Below, one piece after another: positions 4,730 through 8,761 of a stretch of DNA of 31,438 nucleotides. Below the pieces are notes generated by a model that was given only the letters and a program-made list of their open reading frames with translations, had not been told where the DNA came from and did no database searches. The stretch lies in IMG/VR virus record IMGVR_UViG_3300046724_000277, positions 1 to 31,438 of that record. One strand, written 5' to 3'. The DNA comes from a virus. The stretch's first letter is position 1, and every line of letters begins with the position of its first letter. The translations under genes and the position numbers were made by a program.

Positions 4730-5218
4730 TCAGTGCGATGCGGCGGTGATTTTTTCGTGAGGCTTGGGCCCGCGTTGACCGCGCGGAATTTGTTTGAGTT
4801 CGCGCGCCGGTTTGTTGCCGTGTCTTGGGAACCCGCCGTATTGATCGGCCAAAAATTTGTCGATGTCTTTTGCGTCCCACAAGTAACGGCCCGACCCGAG
4901 TTCGCGCCGACTCCATGTTGGCGCGCCGCCTTGCTTGACCCACGTCGCCCACGTTTCGGGATAGATTTGAACGCGCTCGCATACTTGCTCGATGGTAAGC
5001 ATGTTGCGCATGGCTTCGTGTTGCTCAATCGCCCAGGCGAGCACCAAGTCGGGCCGGAAAGAGCGGCGACGTTCGACGCAATTCGATTTCGGAAAACCGT
5101 CGCGTTTAATCCATCGCCGCACCGTCGATAAATGCACATCGAACACGGCGGCGAGTTCGTTCATCGATAGGGAGTGCGGGGTTGCCCGTAGTTGCTCAAT
5201 CGCGGCCGGAAAGTTCAT
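4730..5218 (-). CDS. protein with two helix-turn-helix segments, first gene of leftward unit
   Basis: A 162-residue predicted DNA-binding protein. Two similar helix-turn-helix segments are visible: MNELAAVFDVHLSTVRRWIK (residues about 18-37) and IEQVCERVQIYPETWATWVK (about 75-94). Each is followed by GFP or GAP, as in MerR/excisionase-like or terminase-small-subunit-like folds. The C-terminus is basic (ARELKQIPRGQRGPKPHEK). The start at 5218 follows CGGAGTGG; a longer frame to 5281 would cover the candidate promoter and dyad. As first gene next to the divergent control region, it may regulate the unit or bind the replication origin. Which of these is not decided by the sequence. Confidence 0.78.
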   Translation of the reverse strand: MNFPAAIEQLRATPHSLSMNELAAVFDVHLSTVRRWIKRDGFPKSNCVERRRSFRPDLVLAWAIEQHEAMRNMLTIEQVCERVQIYPETWATWVKQGGAPTWSRRELGSGRYLWDAKDIDKFLADQYGGFPRHGNKPARELKQIPRGQRGPKPHEKITAASH

Positions 5219-5245
5219 AACCACTCCGAGCACACAAAAAAAAGG

Positions 5246-5281
5246 GGCGATATAAATATGCCCGGTTTGACCGACTGTCAA
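5246..5281 (-). promoter_or_regulatory. candidate leftward promoter
   Basis: On the minus strand a perfect TTGACA (5281-5276) is followed after 17 bases by TATTTA (5258-5253), inside an AT-rich run. This would start transcription about 28 bases before the ATG at 5218. The -10 match is poor, so this is a moderate candidate. Confidence 0.4.
5267..5281. promoter_or_regulatory. TTGAC-N5-GTCAA dyad, candidate operator
   Basis: A perfect inverted repeat with 5-base arms and 5-base spacer, centred in the 174-base gap between the divergent units. It overlaps the -35 box of the candidate leftward promoter and contains TTGACC on the plus strand. A repressor bound here could control both directions. 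I saw no second copy in the gap. Confidence 0.4.
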
Positions 5282-6219: not shown

Positions 6220-6480
6220 ATGTCTACACGGAAAAAATCGCACGTGCCGCAAGACGTGCTCGCGGATATTCCTAACTGGATCACCCCGGCGGAATTTGCA
6301 AAAGACTATCCGAACATCGCCACCGAAAAAGCGATTGCGAAAGACATATGGTTGCGAAAAACCCTCGGCCTTGAGTCGGCGGGCGCGGTGCGGCGTGTCG
6401 GTCGCAAATTCCTAGTGCATCGAGTTCGCTATGCGGCCTATCGATTGCACATCACAAACAACCACGGGGAACCGACATGA
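6220..6480 (+). CDS. small predicted DNA-binding protein, excisionase-like candidate
   Basis: An 86-residue basic protein. The segment WITPAEFAKDYPNIATEKAI followed by a basic strand-turn (AVRRVGRKFLVHRVRY) resembles winged-helix excisionase or AlpA-type proteins, but the match is loose. It is two genes before the integrase and close to the candidate attP, where an excisionase would be expected. The start is uncertain. ATG at 6220 was chosen because the protein looks regular from there. A GTG at 6193, with GGAAG upstream, would add nine residues. The stop overlaps the next ATG. Confidence 0.62.
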   Translation: MSTRKKSHVPQDVLADIPNWITPAEFAKDYPNIATEKAIAKDIWLRKTLGLESAGAVRRVGRKFLVHRVRYAAYRLHITNNHGEPT

Positions 6481-6878
6481 GCCACCGCACCGTATTCATT
6501 GACCCGACGATACCCTCAACCGACCGGCGCGCGTTTCGCGAGTCGCTCGTGCTCCATATGGCGAAACTGAACATGAGCGCCGCCGAACTCGCCCGGCAAG
6601 CGCATATCTCGAAAGACGCGGTGAGTAGTTACACCTCGATGCGGAGTTTGCCGACGCCGGTCACCTTGTCGAAACTCGCGGGCGCACTCAAATGCACCCC
6701 GAGGGCCCTCCTTGGATCGGCGAGCGGGCATGAGAATGCCGACGCCCGATTGGCGGTGCTCGAAAGCGACCGGCCGGGGTGCAAACGCTTGGTCGCGTCG
6801 GTGACGGTGCCCGCCGACGTGGCGGCCGAGATATTCGCGCGCTTGGTGCCCTACAGCGGGCCGAAAAAACCCAATTGA
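6477..6878 (+). CDS. XRE-family helix-turn-helix regulator, repressor candidate
   Basis: A 133-residue protein with a clear XRE helix-turn-helix at about residues 21-79: LVLHMAKLNMSAAELARQAH, SKDAVSSYTSMRSLPTPVTL, then LAGALKCTPRALLG. The C-terminal 50 residues are unknown and may form a dimerisation part. It lies last in the rightward control block, beside the candidate attP and integrase, so it is a candidate lysogeny repressor. No cleavable CI-type peptidase domain is present. The start overlaps the upstream stop by ATGA. The bidirectional hairpin at 6944-6973 probably ends this transcript. Confidence 0.85.
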   Translation: MSHRTVFIDPTIPSTDRRAFRESLVLHMAKLNMSAAELARQAHISKDAVSSYTSMRSLPTPVTLSKLAGALKCTPRALLGSASGHENADARLAVLESDRPGCKRLVASVTVPADVAAEIFARLVPYSGPKKPN

Positions 6879-6889
6879 CGAAGGTCATG

Positions 6890-6922
6890 GGTACTCCGCC
6901 CAATATGGGTACTTTGGAGTAC
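6890..6922. repeat. left arm repeats GGTACTCC / GGAGTAC
   Basis: One direct copy GGTACTCCG (6890-6898), then GTACTTTGGAGTAC (6909-6922), which holds an inverted copy and a 5-bp perfect dyad. The octamer recurs on the other side of the core at 7160-7182. This suits integrase arm-type binding sites. Confidence 0.55.
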
Positions 6923-6943
6923 ACATATTATTGTTAAATCATA

Positions 6944-6973
6944 AAAAAAGCCTTTGATTGCAAAGGCTTTTTT
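6944..6973. terminator. bidirectional rho-independent terminator
   Basis: A 13-bp perfect stem: six A, GCCTTTG (6944-6956), loop ATTG, then CAAAGGC and six T (6961-6973). Because the stem itself ends in A and T tracts, it can work in both directions. It follows the XRE gene and shields the tRNA-like core. Confidence 0.85.
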
Positions 6974-7026
6974 GGCGTGACCCCTAGACATGTCAAGGTA
7001 GTGCTCTACCGCTGAGCTATGCGCCC
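6974..7026 (-). tRNA. partial tRNA-Val(GAC)-like sequence, candidate attP core
   Basis: Read on the minus strand from 7026, it begins with a tRNA-like acceptor strand (GGGCGCA), a D-arm with GCTC/GAGC pairing, and an anticodon loop TTGACAT, giving anticodon GAC (Val). The sequence AGGGGTCAC, as in a variable region, follows. The T-arm and a matching 3' acceptor strand are missing, so it is not a complete tRNA. The 3' anticodon stem also differs from a pairing GGTAG. It is most likely a host-tRNA-derived integration core. Confidence 0.55.
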
Positions 7027-7159
7027 GACTGTTCATTTGTTTCGCCTTTCAACCCGCGCAAACCCTGTAATTTAAGCACTTTTCGCGTTTTCATGTTCAT
7101 TTGAATCGGAAAGCTACCTATTTAACAGTTGACACGTATTCGCTCGTTTTGGGGTGTAG

Positions 7160-7182
7160 TTGGTACTCCGTTTGGTACTCCA
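7160..7182. repeat. right arm repeats TTGGTACTCC x2
   Basis: Two tandem copies of TTGGTACTCC with a 12-bp period, 80 to 100 bases before the integrase start. The same octamer GGTACTCC is found left of the tRNA-like core, which suggests integrase arm sites on both sides. Confidence 0.55.
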
Positions 7183-7261
7183 AACTGCTAGAATGACACC
7201 CATCAAACGCGCCACAAATGACCGGCGCGGATTCTACACACACACCCACCTCGGAGCCACT

Positions 7262-8761
7262 ATGAAACCCTTGACCGATGCCGACATCGACAAAATGAAA
7301 CTGCCCGCTAGCAAATACAGCATGCACACCGTCGAGGGTTCGTTGCGTCTGAAGGTATTCAAGACGGGCGCGAAAACCTTCGGCTACTTCGCCAGGAACG
7401 CGAATGACAACAATCAATTCGTCGTGCTTGGGCAGTACGGGCACGGGCCCAATCGCACCCCCGGCTCGCTCACCGTCGCCCAGGCGGCCGACCAATTGCA
7501 CCTCATCAAACAAGCGAACCGCGCCGCCAAAGCACAAACCAAGATCGACCAAGACGGCGCGGCCCGTGCCCCCGGCGCGGCCGACACCCTCGGCCCCGAC
7601 ACGACGTTTTTTCAACTGTTCGCCGACTACGATGCGATGTCGATATCAGTGCGCGAAGGAACCGACGGCACGCGCGCCCGGTGGCGCAATGTCATCAAGA
7701 AACATTTTTTGAGCTACGCCATCCCGAAAGGTCGCGGCGTTTGGGGTCAAATGCGCGTGCGCGAATTCGCGGGCGCATCGAGCAAGGTCGCATACACATT
7801 TCACCTCAAGCAATTGCAAATGCAACCCGCCAAAGGTCACTCGCGCACCGGCAAATGTACGCTCGGCGGTGAGACTCAGCGCAAGGTGTACGGGCTCTTA
7901 CAGCATGCCGTGTTGCACGGGCTCTTGACGGTGAACGATTTGCCGCCCCGGTTGAAAGGCTTGCAAAAAGAGCGCGCGATAAACCGCTATCTATCGGTCG
8001 ATGAGATCGAAAGTTTGTTGCGCGCCACTGAGCCGTCGGTGTGCGACACGTTGAATGCGTTGCCACTCGTGAAGGGTAAAAAGCAAACCCGCATGAAAGA
8101 GTATGACGCTTGCTACTTGCGCATGCTGCTACTCACGGGCGGGCGCGTGAACTCGGTTCGATTGGCTCGACGCTCGATGCGCGACACGGTCAAAAAGGGT
8201 TTTCTAACTTTCCCCGCCGCCGACATGAAACAAACCGTCGCGCAAAAAGAGGAGCCCGTTGACCATCATTTGCCGGTGACGAAACTCCTCGCGCGCGAAC
8301 TCGCTCGCGTTGATAAATCATCCGGCGCATTCGACTACTATTTTCCCGAGCGCTACGCGGCCAAGCGACTTGCCAAGGGTTTGAAAGTGAGCCCCCGGAC
8401 GGCCGATTGGGCAAAGAAAATTTGCAAGGCAAAGCGAAAGCTACTCGGCAACGTAGGCCCCAAGCCTTACACCTCGCAAGCACTGCGCCGCACGATGTCG
8501 AACCATATGCGCGACCTTGAGATACCGAATCACGTCATCGATGTCGCGGCCGGTCGCGTTGAAAAGGGAACGGATAAGACGTACATCACGGGCGACATGC
8601 CCGACCAAGTGTTTGTCGCGTTCCAAAAATATCATGCGTTCCTTGAGGCATGCATGCAAGGCAAGGGCGAACTCTGGATGAACGATGTCAAGAGCGCACG
8701 CATCGACCTAGTCGAAAAGGAAACGGCCGAGCGCTGGAAACGCTTGAACAAGGCGGCGTGA
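7262..8761 (+). CDS. int: tyrosine recombinase / integrase
   Basis: A 499-residue tyrosine integrase that would recombine attP with a host site. Residues about 1-90 resemble the N-terminal arm-binding domain of P4-type integrases (LRLKVFKTGAKTFGYFAR). A core-binding domain follows at about 115-230. The catalytic domain has LLTGGRVNSV (Arg295), SQALRRT (Arg409) and the nucleophile Tyr441 in DKTYI. The usual His of HxLR is Gln406 here, and the second His/Trp position is not evident, so this is a divergent active site. The start at 7262 follows CGGAG; the open frame to 7160 would cover the arm repeats. A strong terminator follows the stop. Confidence 0.92.
   Translation: MKPLTDADIDKMKLPASKYSMHTVEGSLRLKVFKTGAKTFGYFARNANDNNQFVVLGQYGHGPNRTPGSLTVAQAADQLHLIKQANRAAKAQTKIDQDGAARAPGAADTLGPDTTFFQLFADYDAMSISVREGTDGTRARWRNVIKKHFLSYAIPKGRGVWGQMRVREFAGASSKVAYTFHLKQLQMQPAKGHSRTGKCTLGGETQRKVYGLLQHAVLHGLLTVNDLPPRLKGLQKERAINRYLSVDEIESLLRATEPSVCDTLNALPLVKGKKQTRMKEYDACYLRMLLLTGGRVNSVRLARRSMRDTVKKGFLTFPAADMKQTVAQKEEPVDHHLPVTKLLARELARVDKSSGAFDYYFPERYAAKRLAKGLKVSPRTADWAKKICKAKRKLLGNVGPKPYTSQALRRTMSNHMRDLEIPNHVIDVAAGRVEKGTDKTYITGDMPDQVFVAFQKYHAFLEACMQGKGELWMNDVKSARIDLVEKETAERWKRLNKAA

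Follow-up and report, generated by a model that had tools for sequence, protein, structure and literature searches.

A putative phage attachment site carrying the 5′ half of tRNA-Val(GAC) beside a divergent tyrosine integrase gene

Introduction

Why should a phage genome contain a piece of a bacterial tRNA gene, flanked by repeated sequences and situated beside an integrase gene? This question is raised by a viral record of 31,438 nucleotides, the whole of which was analyzed and is called the window below. A sequence-only reading of this DNA had proposed that the locus is an intact phage attachment site (attP) with a core of truncated tRNA-Val, and that the record is accordingly a free or circular form of the phage. 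Several questions follow. Are the repeats arm-type sites for the integrase? Which part of the tRNA does the phage carry, and where would the strands be exchanged? What would become of the host tRNA gene after integration?

Here we conclude, with a probability of roughly 0.87, that the region 6888–7184 is the attP of the phage, acting through the anticodon loop of tRNA-Val(GAC) in the manner proposed below. The attP interpretation is supported by a tRNA-derived core, arm repeats on both sides of it, an adjacent integrase gene, an excisionase-like gene and phage genes on both flanks, and further by a distant relative that is found integrated with the same layout of arms and core. One part of the original description has to be corrected: the core holds the 5′ half of the tRNA, where a 3′ half would be usual.

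The Integrase

The gene next to the tRNA piece is the following:

7262–8761, plus strand: divergent tyrosine integrase of 499 amino acids (PHROG phrog_1, E 3.3e-13; Pfam PF00589, E 0.0027)

Its start codon is at 7262, so that the tRNA piece does lie right beside the integrase gene, as had been stated. The match to PF00589, with its E value of 0.0027, is under the cut-off of the family, and on its sequence the protein is to be filed as a divergent relative of the tyrosine recombinase family only. In two alignments (A1 and A2) with five distant integrases, Arg295, Lys323, Arg409 and Tyr441 are conserved, while the two usual catalytic histidine positions are occupied by Gln406 and Arg432. These two positions are His and His/Trp in most tyrosine recombinases, and the full R-K-H-R-H/W-Y catalytic set is not present in this integrase. 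The loss of both histidines is not unique to it, being shared by one of the aligned integrases, L230, from an Enterobacter plasmid. Because of its divergence and of Gln406 and Arg432 at the histidine positions, the enzyme may be weak or inactive. An AlphaFold model made without an alignment was unusable (pLDDT 35).

No close relative of the integrase was found in IMG/VR, GTDB contigs, phages or plasmids, and the best match is one of ~23% to Klebsiella phages. Pfam gave no match to the arm-binding domain PF13356 in the integrase, which can be aligned end to end with relatives that do match PF13356.

Arm-Type Repeats

A repeat search confirmed that repeats lie on either side of the tRNA piece and that their placement at 6890–7182 was accurate. 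Five putative arm-type sites were listed:

6888–6897, plus strand: left arm-type site 1, TGGGTACTCC (repeat search; GGTACTCC occurs three times only in the window)
6906–6915, plus strand: left arm-type site 2, weaker, TGGGTACTTT (repeat search and listing of GTAC)
6913–6926, minus strand: left arm-type site 3, inverted, ATGTGTACTCCAAA (inverted repeat with 7175–7184)
7160–7169, plus strand: right arm-type site 1, TTGGTACTCC (repeat search and count of GGTACTCC)
7172–7184, plus strand: right arm-type site 2, TTGGTACTCCAAA (repeat search; 12 bp from right site 1)

The sequence GGTACTCC is found at 6890, 7162 and 7174 and nowhere else in the window; 0.11 copies are expected from shuffles, and none of 100 shuffles reached three. 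GTACTCC, counted on both strands, has four copies in the window (6891, 6916 in reverse, 7163 and 7175), all of which are intergenic and which flank the tRNA piece on both sides, and when the intergenic region was simulated 20,000 times with a first-order Markov model, three or more copies were never obtained. The spacing is 12 bp in the right pair and 18 and 10 bp among the left sites. According to the coordinates, the arms are 170–182 and 71–102 bp from the anticodon loop of the tRNA piece. A scan of viral contigs for GGTACTCC-N4-GGTACTCC yielded 87 loci, whose contexts look coding and none of which encodes a relative of the integrase. Thus, the pair motif alone means little, and it is its position that counts.

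That position can be compared with those in two bacterial genomes, G804 and G777, which contain islands with a distantly related integrase and, beside its gene, GGTACC pairs spaced by 12 bp. These islands differ from the phage in that the integrase is only 23–25% identical and the tRNA fragment is the 3′ half, of tRNA-Pro(GGG). The G804 integrase (23–25% identical to that of the phage) carries the arm-binding domain PF13356, and its gene lies terminally in an island of 13.5 kb whose junctions are both readable: an intact tRNA-Pro(ggg) lies at the far end and a 3′ fragment of tRNA-Pro beside the integrase gene. GGTACC pairs with 12-bp spacing are found just inside each end of the island, so that, as in the phage, they flank an anticodon-loop core, at loop-to-arm distances (~145–155 and 92–104 bp) like those of the phage. 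The 12-bp spacing of the right pair is seen in the loci L234 and L235.

How widespread is this arrangement? Among 29 integrase loci of Steroidobacterales, pairs of GTAC spaced by 12 bp are present upstream of the integrase gene in two, which are the only ones that match the phage integrase by BLASTP. The motif is therefore not general to the broad integrase family, as most Steroidobacterales members lack the pairs. The two matching relatives are 69% identical to each other and so count as one lineage rather than as independent cases. IMG/VR contains an integrase closer to that of G804 (L319), in a sequence that is cut off where the integrase gene starts. If the reading of the repeats as arm sites is true, GGTAC pairs with 12-bp spacing mark a distinct branch of integrases.

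The repeats could also be explained without recombination, as operators by which a regulator controls the integrase gene. The candidate regulator is encoded on the far side of the attP:

6477–6878, plus strand: HTH_3 regulator of the Cro/CI type (PF01381, E 1.7e-8)

Its gene ends just before the repeats, and repeats near promoters are commonly operators. However, the left sites follow a gene end and are far from a likely promoter of the integrase gene, and the GGTAC heart with its 12-bp spacing recurs at both ends of an integrated relative, beside an integrase with PF13356. We consider it improbable that GTACTCC repeats are operators instead of arm sites.

The tRNA-Val Core

The core of the proposed attP comprises two nested features:

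6977–7026, minus strand: attP core region, 5′ part of tRNA-Val(GAC) (sequence match to host tRNA genes)
6990–6996, minus strand: anticodon loop TTGACAT, the proposed 7-bp overlap of strand exchange (alignment and in silico recombinants; the exact crossover is presumed)

On the minus strand, the 38 nucleotides from 7026 to 6989 are identical to the 5′ end of proteobacterial tRNA-Val(GAC), and they match at least 120 contigs, mostly of Acetobacteraceae and Lysobacterales. The identity extends through the entire 7-nt anticodon loop and stops 1 nt beyond it, where the phage has TC against G in the host; then follows TAGGGGTCAC as in the host (6986–6977), giving 10 further matching bases, after which the sequence is unrelated. 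The T arm and the 3′ strand of the acceptor stem are missing. The piece had been described as a truncated tRNA-Val(GAC) of about two thirds, which was right, since 48 of ~75 nt are present, and no complete tRNA was detected by ARAGORN in the 31,438-bp window. A 7-nt anticodon loop is the usual overlap at sites of this kind (PMC8371274). Beyond the 5′ end of the tRNA, the upstream sequence of host tRNA-Val genes has no extended match to the phage, and consequently the host range is not narrowed further in this way.

The phage core at 6983–6998 is also a near-perfect 16-bp palindrome, CCTAGACATGTCAAGG, created by the two-for-one base change after the anticodon loop; the host tRNA has no such palindrome.

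The effect of recombination at the loop was simulated in silico. When the tRNA genes of five bacteria each supplied the 3′ half and the phage the 5′ half, ARAGORN recognized a complete tRNA-Val(gac) in the joint; no tRNA was recognized in attP alone or in the reciprocal joint.

These results bear on the possibility that the piece is a remnant, a whole tRNA-Val or a host fragment that was once acquired and of which the 3′ part has decayed, with no role in integration. The window does lack a complete tRNA, and the last ten matching bases come after a two-for-one change, just as decay predicts. Yet decay is unlikely to have removed the rest and spared an exact stretch of 38 bases that stops just beyond the anticodon loop, the piece lies between matched arm repeats beside the integrase gene, and joining at the loop restores the tRNA exactly. 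Such an origin is quite improbable.

Neighboring Genes and the State of the Record

On the opposite side of the regulator gene from the attP, another HTH protein is encoded:

4730–5281, minus strand: HTH protein resembling excisionases or regulators, a candidate directionality factor (phrog_66, E 1.1e-12; HTH_17)

The remaining genes are those of an ordinary tailed phage and include the small and large terminase subunits, portal, protease/capsid, tape measure and tail proteins and a VapE-type helicase. The attP-like site is internal, with phage genes on either side, and the order of genes, with the terminase small subunit and the replication genes at opposite ends, is that of a single phage genome opened elsewhere. 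The IMG/VR record is linear and has no end repeats. The proposal of a free or circular form is therefore upheld in part: it fits the location of the site within phage genes, but circularity does not follow from a linear record without end repeats, and a tandem prophage would look alike. Judged from the gene order only, the record is very probably a free or replicating form of the phage carrying attP.

The alternative would be an integrated tandem array of prophages or an assembly join, in which the site is a hybrid between two copies. An attP-like or hybrid site is indeed what sits between tandem copies in a lysogen, and the linear record without end repeats agrees with this; however, two prophages or a misassembly would be required, and the gene order is that of one genome. 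The chance of such an array or join is slight, a little below that of a decayed remnant.

Proposed Mechanism of Integration

An outline of how the site would work as attP is as follows: initially, the integrase would bind, through its N-terminal domain, to the GGTACTCC arm sites that flank the core. Strands would then be exchanged within TTGACAT (6996–6990), probably with the same loop of the host tRNA-Val(GAC), which would serve as attB. At the junction proximal to the integrase gene, the phage 5′ half (tRNA nucleotides 1–38) would be joined to the host 3′ half to give an intact tRNA-Val; the intact gene is expected at this junction since the half carried by the phage is the 5′ one. At the other junction, the host promoter and the host 5′ half would be joined to phage DNA and would read into a terminator-like hairpin (6973–6944):

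6944–6973, no strand assigned: symmetric terminator-like hairpin with a 13-bp stem and A and T tracts (terminator scan and fold)

Since the fragment is the 5′ half, the restored tRNA gene in the lysogen would be driven by phage DNA, divergently from the integrase gene and presumably from a phage-borne promoter.

If the site is an attP of this kind, the likely attB is the anticodon loop of tRNA-Val GAC, and the range of likely hosts shrinks to those proteobacteria that possess this tRNA. Phages that practice tRNA-dependent lysogeny, in which a short core leaves the host tRNA destroyed and a separate phage tRNA of the same kind compensates, do exist (PMC10865867), and the site is in a tRNA; this mode hardly deserves consideration here, however, as it does not fit a 38-nt shared core that restores the tRNA and a window without a complete tRNA gene, unless tRNA-Val is encoded in some part of the genome that the record lacks.

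The hairpin lies directly after the last tRNA-matching base on the minus strand, and Rfam gave only sub-threshold hits around it. In a lysogen it would be expected to keep transcripts that start at the displaced host promoter out of the prophage; equally, it may merely terminate the transcript of the regulator gene. On the minus strand, a search of the sequence preceding the 5′ half revealed no convincing sigma-70 promoter. A more ambitious version of the attP reading is that the integrase, which has Gln and Arg where two catalytic His are usual, belongs to an undescribed branch, and that the phage 5′ half together with a promoter takes over the host tRNA-Val(GAC) while the terminator silences the displaced promoter. 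We put this forward tentatively and regard it as doubtful. If the attP reading itself is right, this would be an uncommon case of prophage control over the transcription of a host tRNA, in which the host promoter is not borrowed.

Comparison with Known tRNA Attachment Sites

In the usual tRNA attP it is the 3′ half that is present, which leaves the restored gene under the host promoter. Use of a tRNA gene is a well-known strategy, of which the phage attP, with its 5′ half, is apparently an uncommon variant. In the Islander collection, a 3′ fragment is present in 3760 islands and a 5′ fragment in 159 of 3919 (PMC4383910). By its sequence, the phage attP is of the 5′-half type, a minority among known tRNA sites. 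In one survey of tRNA-integrase pairs, opposite-divergent neighbors and integrase-first neighbors in the same orientation together amount to <8% (PMC2951348).

Two known systems can be set beside the phage. The anticodon-loop attP at site A of Islander (PMC4383910) likewise has its core in the loop, arm repeats on two sides, an adjacent integrase gene and a restored tRNA, whereas most of its examples carry the 3′ half and the phage attP the 5′ half. The pTN3-like elements (PMC8371274) likewise have a 5′ tRNA half; they are archaeal and their integrase gene is split by integration, whereas the phage would target a proteobacterial tRNA and its integrase gene would stay whole.

Bacterial integration with a 5′ half can be seen cleanly in two prophages of tRNA-Val(GAC). 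One is an IMG/VR contig with both junctions in this tRNA (L126, 14330–14404, and L130, 93–127) and a 49-bp direct repeat that ends at the anticodon stem; the other has one junction in the same tRNA (L138, 4383–4417). Like the phage, both carry the 5′ half of tRNA-Val(GAC). They differ in having another, shorter integrase (346–364 amino acids), encoded by a gene that ends beside the core, and in that a promoter-like TTGACG box, of which none was seen in the phage, precedes the half tRNA.

Searches for Integrated Copies

No prophage with this integrase, or with its junction at tRNA-Val, was found in the collections searched, and the exact phage-side junction was absent from ~700 genomes of Acetobacteraceae and Lysobacterales. 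Integrated copies with both junctions were seen for a distant relative, in tRNA-Pro.

The island of that relative, at C3:138990–152582 of G804 (L235, L236 and L238), is a cleanly bounded element of 13.5 kb in tRNA-Pro(GGG).
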